In this document: positions 47,869 through 64,000 of the stretch, piece by piece
Layout of the letters: each line of letters opens with the position of its first letter
How positions within the stretch are numbered: position 1 is the stretch's first letter
Assembly: GCF_007671685.1 (NCBI RefSeq)
Contig: NZ_VCNL01000005.1
Location: 186,001-250,000, forward strand
DNA length: 64,000 nt
Direction: 5' to 3'
From: Halorubrum salsamenti
GTDB lineage: Archaea > Halobacteriota > Halobacteria > Halobacteriales > Haloferacaceae
Made by a program: the position numbers and the translations under genes
Notes under the pieces: generated by a model
Told to the model about the DNA's origin: nothing
Database searches by the model: none
The model's input: only the letters and a program-made list of their open reading frames with translations

Positions 47869-48696
47869 ATGACAAACTACGGGCTCGTAATCGACCAGGA
47901 GCGGTGTATCGGATGTCAAGCGTGCGCAGTGTCGTGTAAACAGGAGAACAACGTTCCGATGGGGCAGTTCTGGAACCGCGTGCTCACCGAGGGCGGCGAG
48001 AAGATGGACACCCCGTCGGGCGGCTACCCCGAAGACGGCGGGAGCGGGTCACTGGACATGCAGTACCAGCCGACGGCGTGTCAACACTGCGAGAACGCGC
48101 CGTGTGTGAAGGTCTGTCCGGTCAACGCGACGTACACCCGCGACGACGGCATCGTCGAGATCGACTACGACAAGTGTATCGGCTGTCGCTACTGCATGGC
48201 GGCGTGTCCGTACAACGCTCGAGTATTCAACTGGGACGAACCGGAACACATGCCAGAGGGGGGGACGGGCGACGTAGAGGAGCGGCCACAGGGCGTCGTC
48301 GAGAAGTGTACGTTCTGTAGCCACCGCGTCGACGAGGGCCTCGATCCGGCCTGTGTCGTCAACTGTCCGGCCGACGCCCGTATCTTCGGTGACCTCGACG
48401 ACGAGAGCAGCACCGTCTCAAAGTACATCGACAAGTACGAGACGGACCAGCTGCTCGAAGATCGCGGGACGGACCCGAAGACGCACTACATCAGCGGTGA
48501 GATGAGTCCCGGACGCCCACAGACGTCGGACAAGATGGAGAGCGAACTCGACGATGTCTCGCCGTGGTCTGACGGCGACGACGTGCCGTCTGACGGAGAC
48601 GACAGTGCCGGTGGTGAGTCGAGTGGTGGCCACCATTCGGTCAGCGGCGACGAAGTTCCACGCGTCCCGTCCGTGAAATCAGGAGGTGACGACTGA
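47869..48696 (+). CDS. dmsB: Four-cluster ferredoxin subunit of the reductase
   Basis: 275 residues. Four 4Fe-4S motifs: CIGCQACAVSC, CQHCENAPCVKVC, CIGCRYCMAAC, CTFCSHR..CVVNC. It passes electrons from the membrane subunit to DmsA. A strong SD GGAGGTGA lies just before the ATG. The acidic C-terminal tail of about 70 residues (SDGDDVPSDGDDSAGGESSG) is longer than in bacterial DmsB. Downstream SD GGAGGTGA for the next gene is inside its 3' end; the genes abut. Confidence 0.9.
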   Translation: MTNYGLVIDQERCIGCQACAVSCKQENNVPMGQFWNRVLTEGGEKMDTPSGGYPEDGGSGSLDMQYQPTACQHCENAPCVKVCPVNATYTRDDGIVEIDYDKCIGCRYCMAACPYNARVFNWDEPEHMPEGGTGDVEERPQGVVEKCTFCSHRVDEGLDPACVVNCPADARIFGDLDDESSTVSKYIDKYETDQLLEDRGTDPKTHYISGEMSPGRPQTSDKMESELDDVSPWSDGDDVPSDGDDSAGGESSGGHHSVSGDEVPRVPSVKSGGDD

Positions 48697-50000
48697 TGGC
48701 TGAGAAGACCGAGTCGTCGCGAGTTGCGATCCCGTCCTTCAGCGGAAAGGGCAAGCTTTGGATCGGCCTGCTCGTCGTGCTCATGGCCGCTGGGCTCGCT
48801 GCGTGGGGGTATCAGCTCACGATGGGACTAATTGCCACGGGAATGCGCAACGTCTTCTCGTGGGGACTGTACATTATGATGTTCGTCCTGTTCGTGGGGC
48901 TGTCGGCAGGCGGACTCATCATCAGTAGTGCGCCGAAGTTCTTCCATTCGCACCGCTACGAGGGATTCGCCCGGCTCGGTGTGCTGGTCAGTCTCGCGTG
49001 TATCATCGTCGCGGGACTGCTCATCTTGCCGGACATCGGCCGTCCGGGGCGGATTTACCAGTTTTTCACCTCCCCAGACTTGCGGTCACCGATGGTGTGG
49101 GACTTCGGTGTCGTCCTACTGTACGGACTCCTCAACCTCTGGTACCTGTGGCTCTTGACCCGCCGTGACCTGGCTGCACGCGGGTCGTCCCTGGCGCTCG
49201 GCGTCAAAGACACCGAAGCGGGTCGCGAGCGTGATCGAACGCTTATGTTCTGGACGGCGGCAGTCGCGCTTCCAACTGCGGTCGCACTCCACTCGGTGAC
49301 AGGATGGATATTCGCGACGCAGATCGGCCGTGGTGACTGGTTCAGCCCGCTCGTCGCTCCGGTGTTCATCGCGAAAGCACTCGTCTCCGGGCTCGGCCTG
49401 CTGCTGATCGTGTCGGTTCTCGCGGACAGGTACACGAACTTCGAGGTCGACCGAGAGGAACTCACGAGTCTCGGCAAGATCCTCGGAATCTTCCTCGCGT
49501 TCCACGTGGTGTACCTCTTAGCGGCCGAGCGACTACCACACGCTTGGGCGGATCACTTCGAGTTCTGGGCCATTATGAGTAACTTCCTCATCGGGGACTC
49601 GGTGTACTTCTGGCTGTGGACGGTCGTCGGTGGTGCGGTCCCACTCGCTATGCTGGCACTCCCGTCCCTCCGAAAGCGCGTGTCAGTCATCTTCACGGCG
49701 AGCGTGCTCGCAGTCGTCGGTACGATGTTCGAAGGGATCCGCCTCGTATTCACGGGGTACGAGGTCGCCAACATCGACTCCGCGCCCGGTATCTCGCTCG
49801 GCGGCGAGTACACGGGCATTACGACCAATATCTGGGCGACTGCAGGGGCATACACCCCGACAGTCGTTGAGATTGCTGTCACCCTCGGTATCATCGCCTT
49901 CGGGGCACTCATCGTCACGCTCGGTCTGAAGTACGTGCCGATCCAGCGAGTCGACGCAGAGCCATCCTACGCAGCCGACGGCGGCAAACAAGACCAATGA
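48696..50000 (+). CDS. dmsC: NrfD/PsrC-type membrane anchor subunit
   Basis: 434 residues with about ten hydrophobic helices, the NrfD-like fold (GLYIMMFVLFVGLSAGGLII, PDIGRPGRIYQFF, HSVTGWIFATQI, LRKRVSVIFTASVLAVVG). It anchors the complex and oxidises menaquinol. Larger than E. coli DmsC (287 aa), which agrees with the PsrC-like haloarchaeal version. Preceded by SD GGAGGTGA. Confidence 0.85.
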   Translation: MAEKTESSRVAIPSFSGKGKLWIGLLVVLMAAGLAAWGYQLTMGLIATGMRNVFSWGLYIMMFVLFVGLSAGGLIISSAPKFFHSHRYEGFARLGVLVSLACIIVAGLLILPDIGRPGRIYQFFTSPDLRSPMVWDFGVVLLYGLLNLWYLWLLTRRDLAARGSSLALGVKDTEAGRERDRTLMFWTAAVALPTAVALHSVTGWIFATQIGRGDWFSPLVAPVFIAKALVSGLGLLLIVSVLADRYTNFEVDREELTSLGKILGIFLAFHVVYLLAAERLPHAWADHFEFWAIMSNFLIGDSVYFWLWTVVGGAVPLAMLALPSLRKRVSVIFTASVLAVVGTMFEGIRLVFTGYEVANIDSAPGISLGGEYTGITTNIWATAGAYTPTVVEIAVTLGIIAFGALIVTLGLKYVPIQRVDAEPSYAADGGKQDQ

Positions 50001-50581
50001 CCGAACAAACTGACGCACCGACCGAGCGTGAGCGATCAGCCGAACGAACCGCCGAAAGCGATACGCTCCAGTCGGACGCAGCGGCGATGTACGCAGTCCT
50101 CGCCGAGTGTTGGCGGGAGCCCAGCCACCGGCTCGTCAAGGCCGTCGAAGCCGGTGAGTTAGAACCGGTGTTCGGTGACCTCGACTCGGTAGACCTCAAG
50201 AGCCTTCGAACCGAACACACACGACTGTTCATCGGCCCGGCAGGACCACCATGTCCGCCATACGAGAGTGTCTACCGCGATCGCAACGATCCTGACGAAC
50301 TGGGGCCAGTCAAGGGACCGGCCACAATGGCGGTCACGCGCTGGTATCGAGAGTTCGGCGTCCAGCCTGCTCAGGACCATCCGGACCTTCCGGACCATAT
50401 CGCGACGGAATTAGAGTTTGCCGCGTACCTGTCAGAAGAAGGGCTCGATGAGCGGCTCGACCAGTTCTGTGACGAACACCTCAACGCTTGGACTGGAGAA
50501 TTCTTGGGACTTGTTGAGGACGAGACGTGTGAACAGTTCTATGAATCGCTGGCAGCGACAACCCGAGAGGTGTTAGGATAA
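49997..50581 (+). CDS. dmsD: TorD/DmsD-type maturation chaperone
   Basis: 194 residues, all-helical. Family signature TRLFIGPAGPPCPPYESVYRD (FxGPxxxPxPPYESVY) near residue 75, with an EFAAYLSEE helix. It binds the Tat signal and apo-DmsA before cofactor loading. Overlaps dmsC by 4 bp (ATGA) and ends the operon. Confidence 0.88.
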   Translation: MTEQTDAPTERERSAERTAESDTLQSDAAAMYAVLAECWREPSHRLVKAVEAGELEPVFGDLDSVDLKSLRTEHTRLFIGPAGPPCPPYESVYRDRNDPDELGPVKGPATMAVTRWYREFGVQPAQDHPDLPDHIATELEFAAYLSEEGLDERLDQFCDEHLNAWTGEFLGLVEDETCEQFYESLAATTREVLG

Positions 50582-50990: not shown

Positions 50991-51905
50991 CTATGTCGGT
51001 GATGTTCCCGACGGCTCGAGGTGTTCCTCGAACCACTCGATAGCGGCCGTACTCGCCTCATCAAACGCGTCGACATACGCATCGAAGTGTCCGCCATCGA
51101 GAGTGACGATACTTTTCGGTTCGCGAGCTTTCTCATACGTTTCGAACGCTGCATCTTTTACTGCAAGGTGGTCTCCATTGGCTACAAGCATGCGGAGTGG
51201 AACAGGACTGATATCCTTGGCGTGGGCCATCGGTCTATATTCACTCATCAACTCGACCGTCTTGAGCGTGACTTCGTTTTCCCAATTTGGTGCTCGCTTC
51301 TCCTTCGTTTCAGTAAACCACTCGTAAGAGTCCTGTGTCGGCAGTGCGGCGTCGCCGAGCAGATCTTCGGAAACCACCGGAAGATACGCCGGGTCTTCGC
51401 CCTGGAATCGTGCTCTTCTGTCTGCGTTCATTTGTTCGCGAAGGTCGCCGATGATGTCGGCTCGAACAAGTCGTCTGAGATTGTATAATCCGTTTGTTAG
51501 TGGTACTTGGGAAACGACACAGTCAACCCGGCTGTCCCAGGCACCGACAGTCAACGCGTGACCGCCACTGTAACTCGTACCCCAAACGCCGATTGCATCG
51601 TTGTCGACTTCCTCCCGTGTTTCAGCATACGTGATGGCGTGCCGGTAGTCCCGAACCTGCTGATACGGGTCAATCTCATAGCGGGGCTCTCCCTCACTAT
51701 CACCGAAGTTCCGGTTATCGAATACGACTGACCCGAATCCGGCCTCAGCGAACGCTTCGGCGAATTTGTCGAGGTACATCTCTTTTACCGCCGAGAAGCC
51801 GTGGGCCATTATGATGGTCGGTACGGGACCGTCCGCGTCGTCAGGAGTGTACAACCATCCGCGTAGCGTGTCACCTTCCGCTTCAAACTCGATATCCTCG
51901 TGCAT
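50991..51905 (-). CDS. Alpha/beta-hydrolase (serine hydrolase)
   Basis: 304 residues. HGFSAVKEMYLDKFAEAF gives the oxyanion region, the nucleophile elbow is GTSYSGGHAL (GxSxxG, Ser near residue 116), and the C-terminal LDGGHFDAYVDAFDEA holds the catalytic His. It resembles the dipeptidyl-peptidase/UPF0227-type or S15-like hydrolases (N-terminal EGDTLRGWLYTPDDADGPVP). Probably an esterase or lactonase. It lies just before the mycofactocin-type SDR gene, divergently, so it may belong to the same pathway (inference). Confidence 0.8.
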   Translation of the reverse strand: MHEDIEFEAEGDTLRGWLYTPDDADGPVPTIIMAHGFSAVKEMYLDKFAEAFAEAGFGSVVFDNRNFGDSEGEPRYEIDPYQQVRDYRHAITYAETREEVDNDAIGVWGTSYSGGHALTVGAWDSRVDCVVSQVPLTNGLYNLRRLVRADIIGDLREQMNADRRARFQGEDPAYLPVVSEDLLGDAALPTQDSYEWFTETKEKRAPNWENEVTLKTVELMSEYRPMAHAKDISPVPLRMLVANGDHLAVKDAAFETYEKAREPKSIVTLDGGHFDAYVDAFDEASTAAIEWFEEHLEPSGTSPT

Positions 51906-52200: not shown

Positions 52201-53019
52201 ATGCCAGAGTACGATTTCAGCGGCAAGGTTGCGTTTGTAACCGGTGCCGCACGAGGACAGGGTCGTTCACACGCAAAAATGTACGCCGAACACGGTGCTG
52301 ATGTTGTCATCGTTGATGTCTGTAACAGCATGGAGTCGATCCCGTACAACCTCGGCACACGGGACGAGCTCGATGCGACAGCGGAGACGGTCAGGGACGA
52401 AGGACAAGATGCTCTTGTGGTCGAATGTGATGTCTCGAACGAGGACCATGTGGAACGGGCGGTCGACCAAGCGCTTGATGAGTTCGGACAAATCGATTTC
52501 CTCGCGAATAACGCCGGCATCTTCACCCTAGCCGAGGCGGTCGAAATGTCCGAAGAGGAGTGGGACCAGGTACTCGGAACGAACTTGAAAGGCGCTTGGT
52601 TGTGCGCGAAACACGTCGGTAACCACATGATTGAGCGAGGAGAGGGTGGTAAAATAATCACTACCTCCTCCGGGTACGGGCTCGTTGGTGGTCTTTTGGA
52701 AGGTCACTACACGGCATCCAAACACGGCGTAAATGGATTAACAAAGACGTTGGCACTGGAACTTGCCGAGTACGATATTAACGTCAATGCCATTGCACCA
52801 ACTGGCGTCGATACACCAATGATGGAGGAGTTCGTCGAAGTGTATGGCGATGAGGTTCTCGATGACGTCGTAGAACTCACGGGCCCTTGGAATATCTTCG
52901 GAGGGGGAATGATCGAATCCAAATATATCAGCGAAGCGTATATGTGGCTCTCTAGTGACGCGTCACGTTATGTTACGGGTATAACTCTTCCAGTCGACGC
53001 GGGTCTCAGCGCGAAATAA
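52201..53019 (+). CDS. Mycofactocin-type SDR dehydrogenase
   Basis: 272 residues. SDR motifs: VTGAARGQGRSHAK, NNAGIFT, catalytic TTSSGYG and YTASKHG. The insertion after strand 2 (VDVCNSMESIPYNLGTRDEL) is the feature of the mycofactocin-dependent SDR subfamily (TIGR03971 type), where NAD(H) is bound tightly and mycofactocin takes the electrons. The mft genes nearby support this. The substrate is probably an alcohol; the family includes carveol-like dehydrogenases. Start at 52201 follows the ATG that begins PEYDFSGKVAFV. Confidence 0.8.
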   Translation: MPEYDFSGKVAFVTGAARGQGRSHAKMYAEHGADVVIVDVCNSMESIPYNLGTRDELDATAETVRDEGQDALVVECDVSNEDHVERAVDQALDEFGQIDFLANNAGIFTLAEAVEMSEEEWDQVLGTNLKGAWLCAKHVGNHMIERGEGGKIITTSSGYGLVGGLLEGHYTASKHGVNGLTKTLALELAEYDINVNAIAPTGVDTPMMEEFVEVYGDEVLDDVVELTGPWNIFGGGMIESKYISEAYMWLSSDASRYVTGITLPVDAGLSAK

Positions 53020-53069: not shown

Positions 53070-53837
53070 CTAACGGCGCGCATTGAGTTCGTGGAACTCG
53101 TCTCGGATATACGCCGTATACGCGTCTGCGATATGTTCAAGGAGCACTTCCCCGGCAGCAGCGGTCGCTGGCCTCGCATCACCGAGAACACCGCTTTCAT
53201 CATATGTTTCTACGCCGTCAGCAAATAACGCCGCCGCAGATACCGCTCCGGTGTGTCCTTCGGGGAGTTCGCCTTCCACAAGAGATGGTTCAATAGCGAG
53301 AAGCATCGCAGTCTCGCTGGCACCTGCGTGAACGACGGGTTCGTCGACATCGATTCCTGCGGCCGCTAACCCTTCTTCAAGCAGTTCCATGTATCGTTGG
53401 AGTCTGGTAATGGCGACGAGATCCACGCCTTCCATCCGTGCGAGTTCCGCGTATGCGGCGTCAACTATGGAAAACGAACCTCCGTGTCCAGGGAGTATCA
53501 CAACCCGGGTAAATCCCTGAGTCTCGAAGGATGACACGTAATCACGGAGCACTGCCGTGAGTGTATCCGGAGATATAGAGAGAGTGCCAGGGAATGCGGA
53601 GTGTTCGTCAGAAGGCCCGACTGGCACAGGAGGGGCAACAAAAGCATCATCGAGGTTCCGAGCGACACGTTCCGCAAGTGCCGTCGCGATTCGGGTGTCT
53701 GTCCCGACCGGGAGATGCGGCCCATGTTGTTCGGTTGCGCCGAGCGGAACAATGATGGTATCTACACCTCCTTGAACCGCAGATTCGATCTCTTGCCACG
53801 TCAGATCAGCCAATGTCACGTGGTCAGGGTCACTCAC
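53070..53837 (-). CDS. mftE: MftE, creatininase-family peptidase of mycofactocin maturation
   Basis: About 255 residues of creatininase-like fold: VPLGATEQHGPHLPVGTDTR (metal-binding Glu, His, Asp), VILPGHGGSFSIV (metal His) and HAGASETAML (Glu). MftE cuts the modified MftA C-terminal dipeptide free from the leader. Starts are uncertain: GTG 53837 is used; TTG 53864 has GAGGAG 7 nt upstream, and the frame extends to TTG 53879. The gene is convergent with the SDR gene and lies at the left border of the composite insertion, divergent from mftA if the insertion is removed. Confidence 0.82.
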   Translation of the reverse strand: MSDPDHVTLADLTWQEIESAVQGGVDTIIVPLGATEQHGPHLPVGTDTRIATALAERVARNLDDAFVAPPVPVGPSDEHSAFPGTLSISPDTLTAVLRDYVSSFETQGFTRVVILPGHGGSFSIVDAAYAELARMEGVDLVAITRLQRYMELLEEGLAAAGIDVDEPVVHAGASETAMLLAIEPSLVEGELPEGHTGAVSAAALFADGVETYDESGVLGDARPATAAAGEVLLEHIADAYTAYIRDEFHELNARR

Positions 53838-53913: not shown

Positions 53914-54960
53914 GGCTCTGTTGAAATCCTCAACAAGTGACACATTCTACCCCGGGTGTGGTCAATACAGGAGACTCACGTAACGACGTAGAACGGTGAC
54001 CTATTTACATCGTATCAAAAACCGCGTGCAAGATACAGAGCATCTATTCAGTAGTCAGATCCATCAAACGATTAACTATTTCTCCTCATCAGACGAACTT
54101 GCAGGTGATGAATCAAACCACCTCTCTCCAGTCTCGACTCGGACTCTCCAATCGGTCATTGGCGGGTCTCGGTCTCGCCGCATCGGGCTTTATTGGTTTT
54201 ATGGGGATCATCACGGCAGAAGTCCTCTATCCGAACTACACGACCCGACAGGATATCAGCGACTTGGGCTCGACACGCCCACCTAACCCAGTGATACACG
54301 AACCCTCGGCGACGATCTTCAATTCCACAATGCTTCTGACAGGACTGATTGTAATCCTCTCGGCATATCTGCTCTACCGCGCGATGAATCGTCGCGGGTT
54401 TCCGATTACATTGGCCATCTTCGGATTGGGAGCCTTCGGTGTCGGGGTCTTTCCGGGAAACATGGCTCCGTGGCATGGACTATTCGCCCTCCTTACGTTC
54501 TTTATGGGCGGTATCACGGTCCTCCTCTCCGCACGGGTCGTTTCCCGACCGTTCTCGTTCCTCTGTGGGGTCTTTGGTGGAGTCTCGCTCCTTATTCTCA
54601 TCAGTGTGTTTTTCTTCGGACTGGTCGTCGGTGGTCCGCATCCGCTCGAATTCCTCGGGGCCGGCGGAATCGAGCGCTGGGTCGTCTATCCACTCATCCT
54701 CTGGCTGCTCGCTTTCGGTGGCTATCTATTGGCGGAATCGGATGCGACGAGGAGCCTTACGAAATAGGTAACAGGTAACGATACCCACGGGGTTCGAGCG
54801 AGGAGTTCACAACCAGTGGTGACCGATACGCGCGTTGTATCTCGCACGGCTGGCGGGACGTTTCTCTGAAATGGCAGAACCGTTGGTGTTCAATACGCAC
54901 TCTTCAGCAACCAGCTGTTTCATACAATAATATGTCCGAAGAAGAGGATTCAACAGAGCC
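53914..54960 (-). mobile_element. Cassette-like element E4 (1,047 bp)
   Basis: Right end inverted at 53914-53971; left end read from 54960 backwards (GGCTCTGTTGAATCC, TCTTCTTCGGACATAT, ATGAAACAGCTGGTTGCTGA). Cargo is a DUF998 membrane protein gene. It forms the left arm of the composite, its left end pointing inward. Confidence 0.7.
54108..54767 (+). CDS. DUF998-family membrane protein (cargo of E4)
   Basis: 219 residues from ATG 54108 (GTG 54105 and TTG 54099 also in frame). About six helices with the DUF998 pattern: AASGFIGFMGIITAEVLYPNYT, RQDISDLGSTRPPNPV, TIFNSTMLLTGLIVILSAYL, PWHGLFALLTFFMGGI. Members are integral membrane proteins of unknown function. It is the largest cargo among the cassettes here. 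GC is lower than the core genes. Confidence 0.72.
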   Translation: MNQTTSLQSRLGLSNRSLAGLGLAASGFIGFMGIITAEVLYPNYTTRQDISDLGSTRPPNPVIHEPSATIFNSTMLLTGLIVILSAYLLYRAMNRRGFPITLAIFGLGAFGVGVFPGNMAPWHGLFALLTFFMGGITVLLSARVVSRPFSFLCGVFGGVSLLILISVFFFGLVVGGPHPLEFLGAGGIERWVVYPLILWLLAFGGYLLAESDATRSLTK

Positions 54961-55071
54961 CTATCGTATAGTAACGAACCGTACTCTCGGTCGTCGACCC
55001 CGCCCTACTCCTCGCCGGCGCCGTTCTCCAACATCATGTCTGTACCGGGGGTCGCCCACGTCAAGCAGCGG

Positions 55072-55356
55072 TCAACCGTACCGTTTGTGCGCGTCGTCGA
55101 TATCCATGATATCGATCACACGGACTTCACTGTCGTCCTCAACGATGAACGCCGTGTGGGTCCGGCCAATGTGTAGCCGATAGATCTCCTCGCCGTCAAC
55201 TGTGAGCTTCTCCCGGTCACCGGAGCCTGCGCCCGGTCGAGGGTACGGGTCCTCAGCCAACTTTCGGAGATTGTCCTTGACGATTCGCGTACTCTTCTCG
55301 TCGAGCAGCGAGACGTACTCGCGCGCGTCGGCAGCGAGCAGAACGTTATAGCTCAT
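55072..55356 (-). CDS. RelE/ParE-family toxin
   Basis: 94 residues (ATG at 55356; another ATG one codon earlier). MSYNVLLAADAREYVSLLDE, KDNLRKLAEDPYPRPGAGSG, LTVDGEEIYRLHIGRTHTAF, VRVIDIMDIDDAHKRYG: the RelE fold with Arg residues in place for mRNA cleavage. Overlaps the antitoxin gene upstream. It probably stabilises the replicon-like composite. Confidence 0.8.
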   Translation of the reverse strand: MSYNVLLAADAREYVSLLDEKSTRIVKDNLRKLAEDPYPRPGAGSGDREKLTVDGEEIYRLHIGRTHTAFIVEDDSEVRVIDIMDIDDAHKRYG

Positions 55357-55543
55357 CAAGCGGCGTCAGCTCCTCCGTGTCCGCCTCGCGGACTTCGCGG
55401 ACTTTGTCGGCGAGCTGGCGCCGGTGGTGTTCTTGGATCAGCTCTTCGAGCAGATCGTCGTACGTCTTTCCTGCGCTCTTTAGTTCGTTCAGTTCTTTCC
55501 ATCGTTCCTCTGTAACGGGAATTCGTTTGTTTGCGTTCGACAT
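55346..55543 (-). CDS. Antitoxin partner of the RelE toxin (RHH-like)
   Basis: 65 residues from the ATG at 55543. RIPVTEERWKELNELKSAGK and TYDDLLEELIQEHHRRQLAD resemble the ribbon-helix-helix/DUF7557 antitoxins of haloarchaea, followed by an acidic toxin-binding tail DTEELTPLDEL. Stop and toxin start overlap. Confidence 0.75.
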   Translation of the reverse strand: MSNANKRIPVTEERWKELNELKSAGKTYDDLLEELIQEHHRRQLADKVREVREADTEELTPLDEL

Positions 55544-55717
55544 GGCGGGTGTTTTTTTTTTCACGTAGAATCACCCCCGGCTTCCCCGAGATTCATCCCA
55601 TTATTTGGTCTCCTCGTTTATCCAGGGGGAGTGACGCGCCTTGATTCAGATCGCCCGTGCCACTTGACGATCCTTTTCAGCTACGTGTGCAATCCTTACA
55701 ACCATTACAACTTAAGC

Positions 55718-56263
55718 TTAATCCCCGCTGTCGTCGCCGGCGCCGGCGTGATCGCCGTCACGCCCGGAGCGCATGTTGTGTCGCTTATACGCCTGCAACT
55801 GTTCCAGAAAGGACCGACGCGTGTCGAGGATCGGGTCAGCAACCCCCGGTGTCTCGGGCTCAGGCACGGGTACGTCCACCTCCGCAACGACGGCGCGGTG
55901 ATCGATGCGGTCGACCACGCTCTCGACGCGGTCGCGACGCTCGCGAATCTCACACTCCTCGCGAACGCGTTGCTCCTGCGCGGCGAGCTGTTCGAGACCG
56001 TCGATCGCGCCATCGACGTGCGGGCCCATCTCGTCGTCGTACCGATCGAGTCCCTCGTGCAGCTCGTCGACGGTCGTCTCCCGGCCCTGTTCGCGCTCGG
56101 CGGCGGCGATCGACTTGAGCCGGTCGGCGACGCCCGGTATGTCTGAGCCCTCGCTCACGATATCCGAGAATCGCACGTCAGACAGTGTATCACGCGAGTT
56201 ATCTATCGATATCTTTCCGTCGACGGCGACACCGGTAAATTCGGGCAGTGACAACTTTCGCAC
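55718..56263 (-). CDS. Hypothetical acidic coiled-coil protein near orc1
   Basis: 181 residues, strongly acidic. RKLSLPEFTGVAVDGKISID at the start and a helical, coiled-coil-like middle (VDGAIDGLEQLAAQEQRVRE and ECEIRERRDRVESVVDR). C-terminus Gly/Asp-rich. No known domain. Position beside an Orc1/origin and toxin-antitoxin pair suggests a plasmid maintenance or partition role; this is inference. Confidence 0.55.
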   Translation of the reverse strand: MRKLSLPEFTGVAVDGKISIDNSRDTLSDVRFSDIVSEGSDIPGVADRLKSIAAAEREQGRETTVDELHEGLDRYDDEMGPHVDGAIDGLEQLAAQEQRVREECEIRERRDRVESVVDRIDHRAVVAEVDVPVPEPETPGVADPILDTRRSFLEQLQAYKRHNMRSGRDGDHAGAGDDSGD

Positions 56264-56725
56264 GATTCTACGTATTAGTTCATTATGTGATACGAATGTC
56301 CAAAGCGCTTATCACATTAGAACAAAATCTGCGTGTGCGGCAACGCAGGGTTGTCGCTTAGCCGGCACACCCCCTTACTGCCAACATTCTGTAGCGATGG
56401 CGTCGTCGACGAGCTGATCGGACGACGTGGAGCCGGTGCTGTCTCGATCGCCTTCTCGATCAGGAGAGACCACACGTCAGCGACGAGAAAAGCGCCGCCG
56501 ACGTGCAGAGGGGGTGGGAGCGTGAGGGGTTGTGCCGCGAGCGACCCGTGGGCCGCGTGTTCTCCTACTGCCCTCGGGTAGTTAACCTCCAGCCTGACCC
56601 GTGGTGGAAGTGGACCAGACGACGATCTCGCGGTTCGCCGGATACCCCGCGGTGCCGCTGTAAGTCACCAACCAGATCGCTGTCTCAGTAGTTACAGACC
56701 GGCGTCTCCGAGAAATGTCGGCGTC
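56264..56725. other. Gap without a recognised gene
   Basis: No gene recognised in about 460 bp. Short frames are Arg-rich in both directions. The segment probably holds the terminator of orc1 and decayed sequence. Confidence 0.3.
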
Positions 56726-57952
56726 CTACGACAGCGTGCTCTGCCGACTGAATGTATCCACGTCTTGCACGATCCCGTCAAAGTCCTCGACGTGCTCGAA
56801 CCCTTCCAGTAGCGAATCGAGGTTCACGCGTAGTTCTGAGAGGTAGTAATCCCCACCCTGTACGCCGCCTTTCCGCTTGTGAGTCATTGCCAGATTGTAT
56901 GTGTCGAGGTTCGTAAGCTTGTCACGAATACTTCGCGATGTGAGTTGATTCGTCCCAATCGTGTCAGCGACGCGTTTGTACTCCGAATAGACCTCTTTCG
57001 TCCGCGCGGGCGTGTCTCCGCGAGATTCGAGTATCGCCAGCGCCATCAAGAGCGCCTGATCGTTGATCGTCAGATCCTTGAGCTTGTTGACGATGTTTAC
57101 CTCTTCCAGTTCGTCTCGGGCATCGTCGAGGTGCGCCTCGGTAACGATATCGCTTCCCTCAACGCAGGCGATATCTCCGGCTTCATGGAGGAGGCGAATC
57201 GCCTGTCTCGCAGAGCCGGTGTCCTTTGCCGTCCACGCGGCCGCCAGCCCGACCACGCCGTCATCGACTGCATCGGGTTTGAACGCGGTGTCGACACGGT
57301 CGTACAGAATAGACCGCAGATCGTCGGCGTCGTATGGATCGAAGTGAACCTCGTTCTCATAGAGGCTGTCCTTCGTTTTTGCGGATAGATCCTGTTTGAA
57401 CTGGAGGTCGTTCGAAATGCCGATGATCGAGAGGTGTGCGTTCGTGATTTTTCCGTTCGATCGCGCCCGTGGGAGCTGGTACAACAGGTCGTCGTCAGAT
57501 CCGAGGTTGTCGATTTCGTCGAGGAAGAACACGATGTACCCACCAATTTCGTCGAGCCGTCGGAACATTCGCTCATTGAGATCGGTGAGCGAGAGTCCCT
57601 TTGGTCGCTCTGTCGTTTCGGGCTCGATCTCGGTGAGGATCTTCCCGACGGACTGATAGGCAGTGTTCACGTCTTTCAACGACACCTCGAACGTCCGAAG
57701 GTCGATATCTTTCTCTTGGCAGTAGTTGTGAAGTTCCTCTAACACGACACGAGCAGTGACGGTCTTTCCCTGCCCGGTCTTCCCGGAGATGAGGACGTTC
57801 TTCGGCTCGATCCCGGAGCGGATCGTCGTCCGAAAACTCTTCGCGATCTCTTCTAATTCGGGCTCGCGCTCCGGGAGACGATCAGGAACCCACTCTTCCA
57901 TCAACGCGCGCTCGTTCTCGAAGACGTTAGTGTCGGTTTCAAACAGCGACAT
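56726..57952 (-). CDS. Orc1/Cdc6-type replication initiator
   Basis: 408 residues. AAA+ ATPase: Walker A VLISGKTGQGKTVTAR near residue 55, Walker B YIVFFLDEIDNLGSDDDL, sensor 1 SIIGISNDL, sensor 2 GSARQAIRLLHEAG, then a winged helix (RVADTIGTNQLTSRSIRDKL and YNLAMTHKRKGGVQGG). Initiates replication from the adjacent origin. Start at the ATG at 57952 just before the origin repeats. The ORB repeats beside it are unlike a generic ORB, matching the usual one-origin-one-initiator arrangement of haloarchaea. Confidence 0.92.
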   Translation of the reverse strand: MSLFETDTNVFENERALMEEWVPDRLPEREPELEEIAKSFRTTIRSGIEPKNVLISGKTGQGKTVTARVVLEELHNYCQEKDIDLRTFEVSLKDVNTAYQSVGKILTEIEPETTERPKGLSLTDLNERMFRRLDEIGGYIVFFLDEIDNLGSDDDLLYQLPRARSNGKITNAHLSIIGISNDLQFKQDLSAKTKDSLYENEVHFDPYDADDLRSILYDRVDTAFKPDAVDDGVVGLAAAWTAKDTGSARQAIRLLHEAGDIACVEGSDIVTEAHLDDARDELEEVNIVNKLKDLTINDQALLMALAILESRGDTPARTKEVYSEYKRVADTIGTNQLTSRSIRDKLTNLDTYNLAMTHKRKGGVQGGDYYLSELRVNLDSLLEGFEHVEDFDGIVQDVDTFSRQSTLS

Positions 57953-57996
57953 GGGGCTCTACCTTGCGAGTATCATACACACATTCATTTATAAAA

Positions 57997-58405
57997 CCCC
58001 CACCTTCCGCATTTTCCCGAACTTCCTCATAAGCCGGGTTTTATATACCACACCCACACCCCGTTTCCGCATAATTCCCGTCAGTAGGCGTGGGGGTACC
58101 AGAGCGCCTGTCTCGGCACCGAACCACGCCCTCCCCGATAATCTCGCTTCGCTCTTGTCGCGTTGTTATATATCTTTTGTTTAATGTGTTGTTGTTGTTG
58201 TGTTGTAGGCTGGAGACACCAACAAACAGCACTATTAGACAATTCGATACTGGCGTGTGAACACCGTTTAAGTACGCTACTCGTGGAGTGGCGCTATTGA
58301 GGCCCTCCAAATCACCGGGTGAATAATGCGGAAACGAGGGGTGTGTCTCCGGTTGTGTGCCGTCGTGGAATGTGGTGTCTTCGATTATGCGGAAATGGGG
58401 GGTCT
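57997..58405 (+). other. Replication origin with four ORB-like repeats
   Basis: Four copies of a motif with core TTCCGCATWAT preceded by a C-tract: R1 57997-58018 and R2 58056-58079 in the + direction, R3 58321-58343 and R4 58381-58405 in inverted orientation. Between them lies an AT-rich stretch (58160-58207, TTATATATCTTTTGTTTAAT then GTT repeats), a probable unwinding element. The block lies directly upstream of the Orc1/Cdc6 gene, as in haloarchaeal origins. Confidence 0.75.
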
Positions 58406-58526
58406 GTTGGATACTGACGAGAGGTGCGCTGGTTGCCACAATACGCCTTTTTAGACGCTGACTGCCGACGATCGCGTATGCGAGTACAACCCCCTATCAC
58501 GTCTCACGTTGCGGGCGGTGAGACCG

Positions 58527-59219
58527 ATGGGCGTTGACCACCCGACCAGTGCGACCACGACGACCGCCGCCGAAGACCCACTCCGGCACGTCGTCGTTCG
58601 CGAGGCTGCCGGCGAGCGCGACGCGTTCTACCTCGCGCACCTCTGGTCGCGCTGGTTCGGCACCGAGTACAAACACGGGCACCGATACGCATCGGGAAAG
58701 CTTCCATACCCGCTCTTTCCAGTCGCCGGGTGGAGCACTGAGACCATCGAGATGGAGAACCTCGCCGTCCACGGCGTCGTCGCCGGACACGACCCGCCCG
58801 ATCGCGACGGCGCCGTGCAGATCGGCGGCGGGTTCGCGTCGATCATGAGCCACGAGCACACTGTCGATGAGCCGCCCGACGGCGGGTTCGACGCTGCCGC
58901 GCTCGCGGGCGAGCGCAACGCGTGGCTCTGGTTCGGCGTCGTCGACGAGTCGTGGCGCGGGCTCGGACTCGGCCGCCGGTTGTTCGAGCGCCGGCTCCAG
59001 TGGGCTCGCGATCAGGGCGCCGACATGGCGTTCGCGTTCGGCTGGGAACACGAGGGCCGGACGAGTCGCCCGCTGTTTGAGGCCTTCGGGTTCATCCCCG
59101 TGGAGCGCTTCGAGCGACTGTACGAAGGCGATCGCAACGTGTGTCCGGAGTGCGGGGCGCTGCCCTCGAACGACCGGACGTGTACGTGTGCCGGCGTCGT
59201 GTGGGCGACGGACCTGTAG
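58527..59219 (+). CDS. GNAT-family N-acetyltransferase with a C-terminal zinc ribbon
   Basis: 230 residues from ATG 58527. GNAT core with acetyl-CoA loop VVDESWRGLGLGRRLFERRL and FEAFGFIPVERFERLYEG. The final 30 residues contain CPECG and CTC, likely a small zinc ribbon. Substrate unknown; a role in modification of a toxin or replication protein is conceivable. It lies between the origin and cassette E3 and ends 4 bp before it. Confidence 0.75.
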   Translation: MGVDHPTSATTTTAAEDPLRHVVVREAAGERDAFYLAHLWSRWFGTEYKHGHRYASGKLPYPLFPVAGWSTETIEMENLAVHGVVAGHDPPDRDGAVQIGGGFASIMSHEHTVDEPPDGGFDAAALAGERNAWLWFGVVDESWRGLGLGRRLFERRLQWARDQGADMAFAFGWEHEGRTSRPLFEAFGFIPVERFERLYEGDRNVCPECGALPSNDRTCTCAGVVWATDL

Positions 59220-59223
59220 CTAC

Positions 59224-59945
59224 GACTCTGCTGAAACCCATTCTTCAGACACACTACCGTCTGAAACAGCCGGTCGCTGAAGAGTGCGGATATATCGACA
59301 GGAGGATGTCAGAGGCACAGTCGTCTATCCTCCTAAATAACACACAGTTGTTGAATGTGATAAGACCTCGGAGCCGGTTCTTACAGGCGATAATTGCACT
59401 GTAATGCTGGAATCGGCAGAATGTATCAGCTGATTATTATTTCAACAAAGCCTTTGAGTTGTCTTCATCAGGTGCTTGAATTGTACGTTTCCGGAATTGA
59501 TTCGAGGAGTGCTTCGACGAGGTCATCATCGCCGTACCGGACTGTCTCTGAACGGGGGTCATAATCAACCACACCAATCATGCCGAGTTGGGGAAAGTGG
59601 TTGTGGTGGAGGGCTACTGCAAGTTTGTCATACTCGTCTGCGATCGAGTCCTGCTTCTGGAGATGACTCACCACATCACTAATCGACACGCGATCCGTCT
59701 CAGCTTCTCGCAGGAAGTGAATGATACACCGACGCTCGTACTTGTCTAACAGTGCGAATCGTTGGTCGATCTCTTCAGAAGTATATTCTCGCATTGTCTT
59801 ATTTCCCACCCGACTCTTGAATCTGTTAGTATAAAGTATTGTTCTGGTTGACAGGTTGGCCAGTTCTCTATAGCGCTGAGTAAATGCCCTGTATTGACCG
59901 CAACCGGATCAGAATGTGTCACCTGATGAGGATTTCAACAGAGCC
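59224..59945 (+). mobile_element. Cassette-like element E3 (722 bp)
   Basis: Left end 59224-59284 (GACTCTGCTGAAACCC, TTCTTCAGACACACTACC, CTGAAACAGCCGGTCGCTGA), right end 59888-59945 (CCTGTATTGACCGCAACC to GGATTTCAACAGAGCC). Cargo is a DUF7344-type gene. It forms the right arm of the composite, and its right end meets the AATGGCCC duplication in front of mftA. Confidence 0.72.
59468..59794 (-). CDS. DUF7344-type winged-helix protein (cargo of E3)
   Basis: 108 residues from the ATG at 59794. REYTSEEIDQRFALLDKYER, RCIIHFLREAETDRVSISDV, ALHHNHFPQLGMIGVVDYDP, the pattern of haloarchaeal DUF7344 regulators. A CTTTATACT box at 59829-59837 gives a short leader to 59794. It is divergent from the mftABC operon but separated from it by the element end. 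Could control host or cassette genes. Confidence 0.7.
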   Translation of the reverse strand: MREYTSEEIDQRFALLDKYERRCIIHFLREAETDRVSISDVVSHLQKQDSIADEYDKLAVALHHNHFPQLGMIGVVDYDPRSETVRYGDDDLVEALLESIPETYNSST

Positions 59946-60024: not shown

Positions 60025-60144
60025 ATGTCACAGTCAGCGGATTCAAGCAACGATACTGAACAGTCCACAACTGACGAGCCCGATATCGAGGAAGATCTCT
60101 TCAAGGAAGAGCTCCGAATTGATGGAATATGTGGCGTCTACTAG
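60025..60144 (+). CDS. mftA: MftA, mycofactocin precursor peptide
   Basis: 39 residues, too small for usual ORF lists. The leader (SQSADSSNDTEQSTTDEPDI and EEDLFKEELR) is acidic and the C-terminus is IDGICGVY-stop, which matches the mycofactocin core (IDGMCGVY in mycobacteria): MftC decarboxylates the final Tyr and cyclises it with Val, MftE cuts after Gly. A TATTTAGTAA box lies about 27 nt upstream of the ATG, so the message is leaderless. The first gene of mftABCF; mftB starts 1 bp after the TAG. Confidence 0.88.
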   Translation: MSQSADSSNDTEQSTTDEPDIEEDLFKEELRIDGICGVY

Positions 60145-60145
60145 C

Positions 60146-60388
60146 ATGACCACGAAACTGGCGAGGCCCGATCACATCAAATTCAGGCGGGAGGCGGAAG
60201 GAGGACTCGTGTACGATCACGAAAACTACGGCTACGAGGACGCGTCCATGTACGAAGTGAGCGACACCGTTATTGATATCTTAGAGTACGTCGACGGAGA
60301 ACAACCTCGACAGGCTCTCGAAGAGAAGTTTTCGCCGGCCATCGTCGAAACACTATTACAGCGCGGAGTCATCACAAATGTCGAGTGA
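60146..60388 (+). CDS. mftB: MftB, mycofactocin chaperone (RRE protein)
   Basis: 80 residues. The ATG at 60146 follows the mftA stop by one base. LARPDHIKFRREAEGGLVYD, GYEDASMYEVSDTVIDILEY and PRQALEEKFSPAIVETLLQR fit the MftB/PqqD-like RiPP-recognition fold, which presents MftA to MftC. Overlaps mftC by 11 bp. The longer in-frame version from 60011 runs through mftA and is excluded. Confidence 0.82.
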   Translation: MTTKLARPDHIKFRREAEGGLVYDHENYGYEDASMYEVSDTVIDILEYVDGEQPRQALEEKFSPAIVETLLQRGVITNVE

Positions 60389-61337
60389 ACCGCTTTCGGC
60401 ACCGGTCACGATCACGTGGGAGGTGACGCTGGGTTGTAACCTCCACTGTGACCACTGCCTGTCAGGAAGCGGCCCGGGCCACCAGATGCCGAACGAGCTC
60501 ACGACAGATGAGGCTCGTGAATTCATCACGGAACTCGATCAGATGGACGTGTTCCAAGTGAACATCGGTGGTGGCGAACCCTTCATCCGTCCCGATATGC
60601 TGGAGCTGCTCGAGGAACTCACCAGTCGCGACATTTCGACGTGCGTGAGTACAAACGGAACTCAGCTCGATGAGGCGACGCTCGACCGTATCGAGGCGAT
60701 GGACCCACTATTCCTTCAAGTGAGTATGGATGGTCTCCAAGCTGAAAACGACGCCATTCGTGGTGACGGCGTGTATGACCAAGTCGTCGATGCCCTCAAA
60801 CGGTTAGAGGACCGCGACATCGGCACGACAGTAAACACGGTCGTCACGCGACAGAACGTCGAAGATCTGTCCAAGATATATGACCTCGCAGAATCGCACG
60901 GCGCCGGCCTCCGGCTAAATCGGTTTCGCCCGAGTGGCCGCGGCGAGGACACGTGGGACAAGTTCCGCCTCACGGAAGATCAGATACGGTTCCTCCACGA
61001 CTGGATCGACGATCACCCCGACGTCCGAACCGGCGATTCCTTCTTTTATTTAAATGCGCTTGGTGAGGTTAGAAATAACACGCTCAAACAATGCGGTGCC
61101 GGATCAATGACGTGTCTCGTTGACCCCGCCGGTGATGTGTTCCCCTGTGCGTTCACACAGTGGGATCACCTTGCCTCTGGGAATGTAACGGACGACGGGT
61201 TCCAGACGGCGTGGGACGAAATCGCGAATCTCCGTAGTCGAATCGACGACCACGAGGGGTGTCCCGCGGTCGCGATGGGTAGCTCCGACCCCGACGGCGA
61301 AGACCCTCAGCTACGGGCCATTCTCTCGGGCGACTGA
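60378..61337 (+). CDS. mftC: MftC, radical SAM maturase
   Basis: 319 residues. The radical SAM motif is GCNLHCDHC (CxxxCxxC) near residue 15; TNIGGGEP-like VNIGGGEPFIRPDMLELLEE follows. The C-terminal SPASM domain has C residues in QCGAGSMTC, VFPCAFTQW and EGCPA. In mycobacteria MftC catalyses oxidative decarboxylation of the C-terminal Tyr of MftA and crosslinks it to the penultimate Val. Slightly shorter than bacterial MftC (about 390 aa). Confidence 0.9.
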   Translation: MSSEPLSAPVTITWEVTLGCNLHCDHCLSGSGPGHQMPNELTTDEAREFITELDQMDVFQVNIGGGEPFIRPDMLELLEELTSRDISTCVSTNGTQLDEATLDRIEAMDPLFLQVSMDGLQAENDAIRGDGVYDQVVDALKRLEDRDIGTTVNTVVTRQNVEDLSKIYDLAESHGAGLRLNRFRPSGRGEDTWDKFRLTEDQIRFLHDWIDDHPDVRTGDSFFYLNALGEVRNNTLKQCGAGSMTCLVDPAGDVFPCAFTQWDHLASGNVTDDGFQTAWDEIANLRSRIDDHEGCPAVAMGSSDPDGEDPQLRAILSGD

Positions 61338-61343
61338 CTCCGT

Positions 61344-63716
61344 ATGCCGGGAGATGGGTCGAAGCGGGGTCACGGGGAGTATCGCCTTCGAAGCGGAGTC
61401 ACGGTTACTGGCACTATCCTCGTCTCCACGCAGCCGCTTCTTGCGACGCGACTCAATGAGACCGCTATCGGGACTATCGACGCACTCGAGAGTGAAACGT
61501 TTCGATCGCCGGTGGCGGTCGCCTCGGAACTCGGACGTGACGCCGAGCCGGTTGTACAATTGTTCGAACGGCTCCACCGACGCGGATTTCTCGAGTGGCG
61601 GCCCGCGCGAGATTGCCAATTTAGACCGCCTGTATCGATCGTCGTGACGGTCCGAAACGACCGTAGCTCCCTTAAAAAGTGTCTCGACGCACTAGCCGAA
61701 CTTGAGTATCCGATGTACGAGGTAGTGGTGGTTGACGACGGGTCAACAGACGGGACCAACAAGATGGCCAGAAACTACGGCATGGTCGGAACCAGTCGCG
61801 TTCACGTGCTGTCGGTCGGTAGTGCCACCGATCCGCTGGGCATCGGTACCTCGCGAAACCGTGGTGTCGCCGCAGCTACTCACGATGTCGTCGCGTTCAC
61901 TGACGCGGACTGTCGCCCGCGGACGGACTGGCTTACCGACCTCGTCCCGATCCTCAGAACTGCCGACCTCGTCGGGGGTCGGATCCGCCCCGCAGGTGAG
62001 ACAGCAGCGAGCGTATACGAGGGGATCAACTCTTCACTGGATATGGGCGCATACGCGTCACGAGTGGATCCCGGTGGGAACGTCCCGTATCTAGCAACGG
62101 CGAACTTGATCGGCCACCGCTCTGCGTTCGAATCCGTCCCGTTTCCCAATCGGAGTATCGCCGAAGATGTGGACGTGTGCCGGCGCGCTATCGCGGCTGG
62201 ACTCGAGGTCGTGTACTCGCCAACTGGGGTCGTCGAACATGTATATCGAGATGGGAAACGCGACTTCTCCAGCCGTCGCGCGGCGTACGGTTCGTCGGAG
62301 GCGCTGCTCGCGCGCGACTACGGTCGTAATGCCTCCGGCAGCGTCGGTATGCCAACGCTCCTCCCCTTCGCCGTCATAGTCGGGTTGCTTGCGACCTTTG
62401 GTTCGGCCGCAGTCTCCGCTGTCACGGTCGGAGTGATGGCGATATCACTCGGTCTCCTAGGAAGTTTCCGTGGGTGGCATCTCTGGCAGCGGTACAGACA
62501 GCTAAACCCGATTATTGCGGCGTCTGACGTGCTACGGAGCTGGGGTCGTGAGCGACTTTCGTCGGCGTATGCCGTATCGCGAGAGATCATGCGGTACTAC
62601 TCGGGACCGGCACTCTTTCTCGGTGTTCTAGTATGGGGAGCGGGGATACAGACAGTGGGAAGCGGCATCATCGGTGTGACGATCACCGCGATAGCGCTCC
62701 CGCTGGCCGTCGAATATAACGTCCATGATCCAGACACGTCGCTACTTGGCTACGGAACGTACTACGCCGCAGACCACTTCGGATATCAGTATGGGGCCTA
62801 TCGCGGAGCATTCGTCTACCACACGTTCAGCCACCTAAATCCGCTGACGCGGTTTCGACTCACAGGAGCCGGAGCAAAGCTCTTCGCACGACGACGTATC
62901 GGCCGTGAGACATCACCCACAGAGACGCTCACCGTTGGGAGCGTAACAGGTCGATTCAACGTCGATTCATCGGCAGAAGAGTGGTGGTTCAAGGATGACC
63001 AGCTCAGGGGCGAACGTCCGGTCGTCGCCGATCTGCTCGACCGAATCAAATCCGACGACACGTTCCTCGATGTCGGCGCAAATATCGGGATCTACAGTTG
63101 TCTGGTCGGCCGTAAACTCGACAAGGGGACCGTCATCGCTGTCGAGCCTCATCCGGAGAACGCGGCGCGGCTCGCGGAGAACCTGTCGATGAACGATATC
63201 GATTCACCGGTGGTTCGAAAGGCGCTCGGAGCCGAAAACGGACGTGGGGTGCTGACAAGCCCGGACGATACGGTGGCTGGGAGCGGGACACACACCCTCC
63301 TCACAGAACAGGACGCGCCGACCGACTCAGTGTCGTCCTCAACCGATCAGTCGCTGTCGACGCCGGTCGTGACGGGAGATTCGTTGGTGGCATCAGGTGA
63401 GAGACCACAGCCGACGGTGGTCAAGATCGATGTCGAAGGCACAGAAGTTGATGTGCTCGACGGAATGGACGAGGTCTTATCAGACCCATCGTGTCGACTT
63501 GTGTACTGTGAACTTCATCCGGAATCACTCTCAAAACGCGGCGTGGCCACAGAACGAGCAACGACTGTCCTCCACAAGAAGGGATTCTCCGTGACACGTG
63601 TTCAGGACCTCCCGGACGAACGGACCATCGTTCGAGCCGAAAAGGACACAGTGAGAGCGGAGAAAACCACGTCGAACGCGGTTGGAAACGTTGATTCGGA
63701 TAATGTCGAGCAGTGA
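61344..63716 (+). CDS. mftF: MftF-type glycosyltransferase fused to an FkbM-type methyltransferase
   Basis: 790 residues, about 320 more than usual MftF. Residues 1-90 are an MftB-contact-like N-terminal part. Residues 100-330 form a GT2 domain (SIVVTVRNDRSSLKKCLDAL, VVVDDGSTDGT, AFTDADCRPRTDWL, SPTGVVEHVYRDGKRD). Two or more helices follow (LPFAVIVGLLATFGSAAVSA, MRYYSGPALFLGVLVWGAGI). The C-terminal 240 residues are an FkbM methyltransferase: FLDVGANIGIYSCLVGRKLD (SAM loop), VIAVEPHPENAARLAENLSM, VVKIDVEGTEVDVLDGM, LVYCELHPESLSKRG. Oligoglucosylation plus O-methylation by one protein is inferred. 6 bp after mftC. Confidence 0.82.
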   Translation: MPGDGSKRGHGEYRLRSGVTVTGTILVSTQPLLATRLNETAIGTIDALESETFRSPVAVASELGRDAEPVVQLFERLHRRGFLEWRPARDCQFRPPVSIVVTVRNDRSSLKKCLDALAELEYPMYEVVVVDDGSTDGTNKMARNYGMVGTSRVHVLSVGSATDPLGIGTSRNRGVAAATHDVVAFTDADCRPRTDWLTDLVPILRTADLVGGRIRPAGETAASVYEGINSSLDMGAYASRVDPGGNVPYLATANLIGHRSAFESVPFPNRSIAEDVDVCRRAIAAGLEVVYSPTGVVEHVYRDGKRDFSSRRAAYGSSEALLARDYGRNASGSVGMPTLLPFAVIVGLLATFGSAAVSAVTVGVMAISLGLLGSFRGWHLWQRYRQLNPIIAASDVLRSWGRERLSSAYAVSREIMRYYSGPALFLGVLVWGAGIQTVGSGIIGVTITAIALPLAVEYNVHDPDTSLLGYGTYYAADHFGYQYGAYRGAFVYHTFSHLNPLTRFRLTGAGAKLFARRRIGRETSPTETLTVGSVTGRFNVDSSAEEWWFKDDQLRGERPVVADLLDRIKSDDTFLDVGANIGIYSCLVGRKLDKGTVIAVEPHPENAARLAENLSMNDIDSPVVRKALGAENGRGVLTSPDDTVAGSGTHTLLTEQDAPTDSVSSSTDQSLSTPVVTGDSLVASGERPQPTVVKIDVEGTEVDVLDGMDEVLSDPSCRLVYCELHPESLSKRGVATERATTVLHKKGFSVTRVQDLPDERTIVRAEKDTVRAEKTTSNAVGNVDSDNVEQ

Positions 63717-63764: not shown

Positions 63765-63980
63765 TCACAGTAACTGGTGTTCCTCGAGGTACGTGACGAC
63801 ACGCTCTGCGGCTTCCTCGGGCGATGTATCGATCTGCTCTCCGGCGCTCGATCCCTCGTCGCTGCCCCGTCCGAGCATTCGGTAGATGCGCTCCTCGACC
63901 GTCCCGGTTCGTGGCGGCCGACCACGACCCCAGCGTTCGTTGGGTGTCACATCTTCGATTGTCACAGGACCGACACTCAT
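63765..63980 (-). CDS. Hypothetical small acidic protein
   Basis: 71 residues from ATG 63980: SVGPVTIEDVTPNERWGRGR, TVEERIYRMLGRGSDEGSSA, SPEEAAERVVTYLEEHQLL. Composition is haloarchaeal; no domain recognised. Convergent with mftF, so probably not part of that operon. It may be the mftD/other neighbour's small partner; unknown. Confidence 0.5.
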   Translation of the reverse strand: MSVGPVTIEDVTPNERWGRGRPPRTGTVEERIYRMLGRGSDEGSSAGEQIDTSPEEAAERVVTYLEEHQLL

Positions 63981-64000
63981 CGAAAATCGTGACTCACGTG

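Follow-up and report, generated by a model that had tools for sequence, protein, structure and literature searches.

Introduction

Mycofactocin is a redox cofactor known mostly from mycobacteria, whose mft gene clusters have the arrangement mftABCDEF(G) (M. smegmatis, M. tuberculosis), and an archaeal cluster was reported in 2011 on plasmid pHTUR01 of Haloterrigena turkmenica, together with short-chain dehydrogenase/reductase (SDR) and Zn-dependent dehydrogenases (PMC3023750). Here we analysed an mft locus of Halorubrum salsamenti that lies in a 64,000-nucleotide stretch of contig NZ_VCNL01000005.1 (assembly GCF_007671685.1, positions 186,001 to 250,000; hereafter the window) and compared it with these clusters and with those of other haloarchaea and bacteria. 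The results point, with a probability of about one half, to a divergent mycofactocin pathway in which the radical S-adenosylmethionine (SAM) maturase MftC works with a single auxiliary iron-sulfur cluster and a module of old yellow enzyme (OYE) and electron-transfer flavoprotein (ETF) genes replaces MftD and/or MftG.

In the described pathway, MftD deaminates AHDP to a redox-active keto-amide, and deletion of mftD in M. smegmatis abolishes mycofactocins and leads to accumulation of AHDP (PMC7491314). The 2011 paper had noted that MftD is not universal (PMC3023750). MftE is likewise common without being found in every such cluster, and about 25% of the genomes with mftC are without MftG, a question left open by the 2025 MftG paper (PMC11778925). 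For characterised MftC, the second auxiliary cluster (AuxII) was reported to be necessary for the product and not for SAM cleavage (PMC10452713); according to a 2021 review, it is unclear what AuxII does in SPASM enzymes (PMC9012708).

The first-pass annotation of the window had regarded an archaeal mft set as unusual, a view that the pHTUR01 report had already overtaken. In addition, mftA, mftB2 and mftC are annotated by NCBI on haloarchaeal plasmids, being plasmid-borne in at least two species. In a search of the literature, from which most subscription journals were outside, the 2011 paper was the only match for mycofactocin with Haloterrigena, and in the searched portion of its text the SPASM domain and OYE proteins both go unmentioned (PMC3023750). 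The haloarchaeal mft cluster as such is thus known, whereas its distinct haloarchaeal form is without description in the literature searched. Mycofactocin in other archaea was considered and rejected, as the further archaeal matches share 26–31% identity and, judged by identity only, probably belong to other radical SAM families.

Results

Core genes of the mft locus

The genes mftA, mftB2, mftC and mftF are intact and lie in this order at 60025–63716, as the first-pass annotation had placed them, with spacings of +1, −11 and +6 bp that agree with its overlaps or gaps of at most 11 bp. On the forward strand, mftA (60025..60144) encodes a 39-residue precursor peptide with the C-terminus IDGICGVY (its end reads ...EELRIDGICGVY), and its TIGR03969 match (35.9 bits, cut-off 25) was unique in a profile search of the whole genome (3.67 Mb, 99.96% complete). 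It is followed on the same strand by mftB2 (60146..60388; start codon set from the sequence), coding for an 80-residue peptide chaperone of the type of the recognition elements of ribosomally synthesized and post-translationally modified peptides (RiPPs; NF043018, 131 bits, cut-off 62), and by mftC (60378..61337; 319 residues; TIGR03962, 306 bits, cut-off 265). The runner-up family for MftC, AhbD, reached 128 bits, and the outcome that the first-pass annotation had named as refuting it, placement of MftC in another radical SAM clade, did not arise. The last gene, mftF (61344..63716, forward strand), encodes a group-2 glycosyltransferase (residues ~22–500) fused to an FkbM methyltransferase (~573–749; TIGR01444, 99 bits; PF05050, 60 bits). 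MftF scored 241 bits against a TIGR03965 cut-off of 280, but this is its best family, and its homologue in the H. turkmenica mft operon is annotated as MftF. Judged by MftC, which is 98% identical in the two, the window is closest to Halorubrum sp. 48-1-W. The gene set in the window is real and far beyond chance.

Haloarchaeal MftC lacks the AuxII ligands

MftC was found in 13 of 391 Halobacteria genomes, spread over four families. In all 13, coverage of the family profile stops at position 284–289 of 339 (301–308 bits; position 286 in the window protein), whereas full-length bacterial MftC extends to position 333–338 with 571–660 bits (33/33; one further bacterial match, cut by a contig end, was left out). 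In the haloarchaeal alignment, the radical SAM cysteines (C20, C24 and C27 of the window protein, in a CxxxCxxC motif) and the four cysteines of the first auxiliary cluster, AuxI (C239, C246, C257 and C295), are invariant. The AuxII ligands, consisting of a CxxCx5C block and a final Cys, are deleted in all sequences aligned (0/4 left). This division of the cysteines between AuxI and AuxII follows the ligand scheme of anSME. It also follows the ligand assignment published for AhbD (PMC10452713). The AuxII cysteines are present in 33/33 full-length bacterial MftC, and among bacterial sequences with an intact C-terminus none was without the CxxCx5C block (L048 and L080 are cut short where their contigs stop).

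Sequencing error or frameshift was ruled out as the origin of the shortening, since independent genomes share the end GEDPQLR and the SPASM domain is not continued in any other frame. The haloarchaeal proteins form a single clade in the tree (SH-aLRT 100), so AuxII may have been lost in one event and the shorter form then retained. Judging from the codon changes between the window and its nearest relative (28 synonymous, 7 nonsynonymous), mftC is under purifying selection; the corresponding counts for mftF were discarded because the ungapped comparison ignores indels. The predicted structure has the SPASM/twitch RiPP maturase fold (Z scores of 27.2 with SuiB, 27.1 with SkfB, 22.7 with PqqE and 20.7 with MoaA), and the AlphaFold model, with a mean predicted local distance difference test score of 78.6 and a tail under 50, bears on the fold only. 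In its single set of auxiliary-cluster cysteines the window MftC resembles twitch enzymes such as MoaA and BtrN; unlike these and the SPASM maturases SuiB, SkfB and PqqE, its sequence is that of MftC, with a truncated SPASM domain inside the MftC family.

No MftD or MftG in MftC-positive haloarchaea

The first-pass annotation had found no mftD and offered two explanations, location beyond the window or absence. In profile searches of genomes, on which all absences given here are based, MftD was above cut-off in 0/13 MftC-positive haloarchaeal genomes, and the same search gave 715 bits for T. roseum. Absence from the near-complete genome and its 12 relatives rules out the first explanation and leaves the second standing. 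Generic flavin mononucleotide (FMN) hydroxy-acid dehydrogenases matched at ~138–154 bits in five haloarchaeal mft genomes, and the search of the whole window genome for an MftD-like FMN enzyme returned nothing beyond a weak 45-residue match. MftG, a mycofactocin dehydrogenase of the glucose-methanol-choline (GMC) family (TIGR03970), was likewise above cut-off in none of the 13 MftC-positive haloarchaea, the window genome included; the best match under the cut-off was partial, at 248 bits, in 3 of the 13. The losses of AuxII and MftD coincide in 13/13 haloarchaeal genomes. In MftD-less bacteria, MftC keeps the full SPASM domain, and the two losses are therefore separable.

An OYE/ETF module accompanies haloarchaeal MftC

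Haloarchaea with mft genes share a conserved island of ~20 kb, which in H. salsamenti extends beyond the window. Directly after mftF, an apparent operon that runs towards it on the other strand comprises OYE_a, ETF alpha, a FixC-like reductase, a FixX-like ferredoxin, an SDR and ETF beta (L002:766-7058 in our locus coordinates); the 3′ end of the ETF beta gene falls within the window (63765..64000, reverse strand; whole protein L002:766-1623; TIGR04503, 86 bits). Beyond this module stand a von Willebrand factor A (VWA)/AAA ATPase pair, TnpB, five TIGR03971 SDRs and a second OYE. The island thereby holds two flavoproteins of the OYE_2 family, with FMN, [4Fe-4S] and flavin adenine dinucleotide (FAD). 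OYE_a matches of at least 616 bits occur in 13/13 MftC-positive and 0/378 MftC-negative haloarchaea. The ETF/OYE block is kept in H. turkmenica and Halolamina, and its members lie beside other haloarchaeal loci as far as these were read. Among solved proteins, the closest relatives of OYE_a are FadH, NCR and histamine/trimethylamine dehydrogenase; aligned with histamine dehydrogenase, it keeps a His-172-like residue and the 4Fe-4S cysteines. The two amine dehydrogenases serve here as a working analogy and do not define the family of OYE_a.

The ATPase pair is of the chelatase/MoxR kind (L002:7213-10385) and conserved in the haloarchaeal island, and a VWA protein is also encoded upstream of mftC in Competibacteraceae (L067). 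The pair may act as assembler of a cofactor-dependent complex. Between it and the SDR array lies a gene for a TnpB-type RNA-guided endonuclease (L002:10966-12312).

OYE_2 proteins in bacterial mft genomes

The bacterial sample consisted of 40 mft genomes or records (the Streptomyces record being a plasmid only), 16 without and 24 with MftD. OYE_2 proteins of at least 600 bits were present in 12/16 of the former and 6/24 of the latter (Fisher p 0.003). Most genomes that have MftD and no OYE_2 are also without MftG, an argument for linking OYE_2 to the absence of MftD rather than to that of MftG. In Competibacteraceae, in whose mft genomes MftD was not found, the gene order is mftC-OYE-OYE-etfA-fixC-etfB-mftE-mftF (L067). 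The MftD-less operons of Competibacteraceae (L067, L073, L078) and an alphaproteobacterium (L052) thus resemble the haloarchaeal island in the missing MftD, the OYE pair and etfA-fixC-etfB, but their MftC keeps the full SPASM domain, their OYE pair falls in another clade, and the precursor was not found near mftC in Competibacteraceae or lies downstream of mftF (L052).

A precursor ending in GVY was not seen in the three Competibacteraceae loci. Each has, directly upstream of mftC and in the place expected for mftA/mftB, a gene for a conserved small protein (MPKYLIERELPGAGKLSP...). L052 encodes a C-terminus resembling that of MftA, GIDAMCGVY, downstream of mftF.

Other mycofactocin-related genes and neighbouring features

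A creatininase-family peptidase of the MftE type is encoded at 53070..53837 on the reverse strand (PF02633, 224 bits). Although its TIGR03964 score of 159 bits is just under the cut-off of 172, this is its best family, and the protein is 95% identical to the product of the mftA-adjacent gene of Halorubrum sp. 48-1-W (L029) and 59% identical to the MftE of H. turkmenica (175.6 bits), which adjoins mftA. The SDR at 52201..53019 (forward strand) is a mycofactocin-coupled dehydrogenase of the nicotinoprotein type (TIGR03971, 324 bits, cut-off 300); both genes lie at the coordinates given in the first-pass annotation. The window genome has at least six TIGR03971 SDRs, and such SDRs are present in 13/13 MftC-positive as against 6/378 MftC-negative Halobacteria genomes. 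These six (G287, G053, G162, G208, G243 and G383) carry one SDR each above the cut-off and are an exception to the rule that TIGR03971 SDRs mark mycofactocin producers.

MftF is fused to FkbM in the window genome and in 5/12 other MftC-positive haloarchaea (2/6 established by domain search, the other four by alignment length) and unfused in the remainder. In mycobacteria, the second glucose is methylated by a separate enzyme, MftM (PMC11778925). The fusion suggests a methylated glycan.

Between mftE and mftA, the window contains a mobile-element-like insertion of 6,032 bp (53914..59945, no strand assigned), marked by imperfect inverted repeats of 79 bp at its termini (GGCTCTGTTGAA...) and an 8-bp target duplication (AATGGCCC). 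Its cargo comprises orc1/cdc6, GNAT, DUF998 and DUF7344 proteins, and no transposase was seen among the open reading frames scanned in it. The syntenic locus of Halorubrum sp. 48-1-W is without the insertion, and mftE adjoins mftA there. Farther upstream in the window, genes for an NrfD-type membrane protein and then a nitrate-reductase-delta/TorD-like chaperone (48696–50581) suggest a molybdoenzyme operon. An alpha/beta hydrolase at 50991–51905 (reverse strand) resembles the UilS quorum-quenching lactonase family, with 144 bits, far under the cut-off of 400.

Discussion

The island of H. salsamenti is of the same type as that on pHTUR01 of H. turkmenica, with which it shares mftE-A-B2-C-F, the ETF/FixC/OYE block, the VWA and AAA pair, several SDRs, the MftF-FkbM fusion and an MftC of 85% identity; it differs in that its mftE is parted from mftA by the 6-kb insertion. 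With the mycobacterial clusters it has in common mftA, an mftB-type gene, mftC and mftF in order, an mftE-type peptidase and TIGR03971 SDRs. Unlike them, its genome is without mftD and mftG, its MftC is without AuxII, and its MftF carries the methyltransferase that mycobacteria have as a separate protein. The truncated SPASM domain of MftC, the MftF-FkbM fusion, the insertion between mftE and mftA and the OYE/ETF module beyond the window had escaped the first-pass annotation.

What is observed here is which genes are present, missing or found together and which cysteines are lost; every chemical step and electron route of the following scheme is inferred. MftB2 would present MftA to MftC, which would decarboxylate and cyclise the C-terminal Val-Tyr using the radical SAM cluster and AuxI alone. 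The electron would then leave MftC from AuxI only, perhaps to a soluble acceptor, where bacterial MftC is thought to route it via two clusters. After MftE has freed the cyclised core AHDP, its oxidation to the keto-amide must, with no MftD, fall to another enzyme, for which one of the two OYE_2 flavoproteins of the island is the best candidate. Electrons from OYE_2 could pass via ETF alpha/beta, the FixX-like ferredoxin and the FixC-like quinone reductase, and because MftG is missing too, the same chain probably re-oxidises the reduced cofactor. MftF would glycosylate the cofactor, the FkbM domain fused to it might add a methyl group to the sugar, and the several TIGR03971 SDRs would use the cofactor. 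At somewhat less than even odds, the redox cofactor made by the island is either a structurally distinct one derived from Val-Tyr or premycofactocin reached in a new way, with one-auxiliary-cluster MftC passing its electron straight to a FixX-type ferredoxin and the ETF-coupled OYE pair carrying out the oxidative deamination that is the task of MftD elsewhere.

Several observations weigh against the divergent pathway of the scheme above. As AuxII was reportedly required for the product in characterised MftC, full chemistry by the AuxII-less enzyme is not guaranteed. Judged from alignments, OYE_a is without the FadH catalytic dyad (Tyr166, His252) and without the 6-S-cysteinyl-FMN Cys and the Trp/Asp pocket residues of histamine/trimethylamine dehydrogenase; with the dyad and most amine-dehydrogenase pocket residues absent, its reaction is not readable from alignments. 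Corrected for descent, the association between MftD and OYE_2 comes down to 3–4 contrasts and is not significant (underpowered), and Actinomycetospora and Pseudonocardia carry MftD together with the OYE pair. In the tree, the haloarchaeal OYE pair is a clade of its own, not nested among bacterial mft OYEs. Strict orthology between the two is thus unsupported, and the bacterial parallel is one of arrangement.

The co-occurrence in Actinomycetospora fits a rather unlikely alternative, namely that ordinary mycofactocin is made, that AHDP is deaminated by an enzyme outside the island, and that OYE/ETF/FixCX, in the manner of MftG, only re-oxidises mycofactocinol or takes substrate electrons. MftG is indeed absent in 13/13, ETF/FixCX could plausibly feed electrons into the quinone pool, and NCBI already names the OYE/ETF families as mycofactocin-associated. 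However, genomes with MftD are usually without both OYE_2 and MftG, so missing MftG alone calls for no OYE_2, whereas OYE_2 is nearly always present in MftD-less genomes; and the window genome offers, beyond the 45-residue match, no MftD-like FMN enzyme for the deamination.

The coincidence of AuxII and MftD loss in all 13 haloarchaea would also be expected if MftC halted after decarboxylation or formed another cross-link, giving a different Val-Tyr-derived cofactor for which MftD is unneeded. The reported need of bacterial MftC for AuxII to reach the final product while SAM cleavage persists (PMC10452713) is in keeping with this idea, but we consider it improbable: both the C-terminus of MftA and its partner SDRs of TIGR03971 are conserved, with scores above the cut-offs, and the full SPASM domain of MftD-less bacteria shows that the two losses can be separated. 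Decay of a horizontally acquired relic, with MftC truncated as no longer important, is hardly credible. The sparse occurrence of mftC (13/391 Halobacteria), its plasmid location in two or more species and the insertion parting mftE from mftA could be read in that way, yet the same truncation is fixed in otherwise intact proteins in four families, the radical SAM and AuxI cysteines are invariant, mftC is under purifying selection and the ~20-kb island is conserved.

The haloarchaea provide a natural MftC clade that has lost exactly the AuxII ligands and is under purifying selection, so that the role of AuxII can be tested directly. With MftD consistently missing, it must be asked what enzyme generates the redox-active keto group. 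The gaps left by MftD and MftG both point to the OYE/ETF genes; the absence of MftG in haloarchaea also bears on the question left open by the 2025 MftG paper (PMC11778925). The haloarchaeal version shows what the mycofactocin pathway can dispense with, namely MftD and half of the iron-sulfur machinery of MftC.

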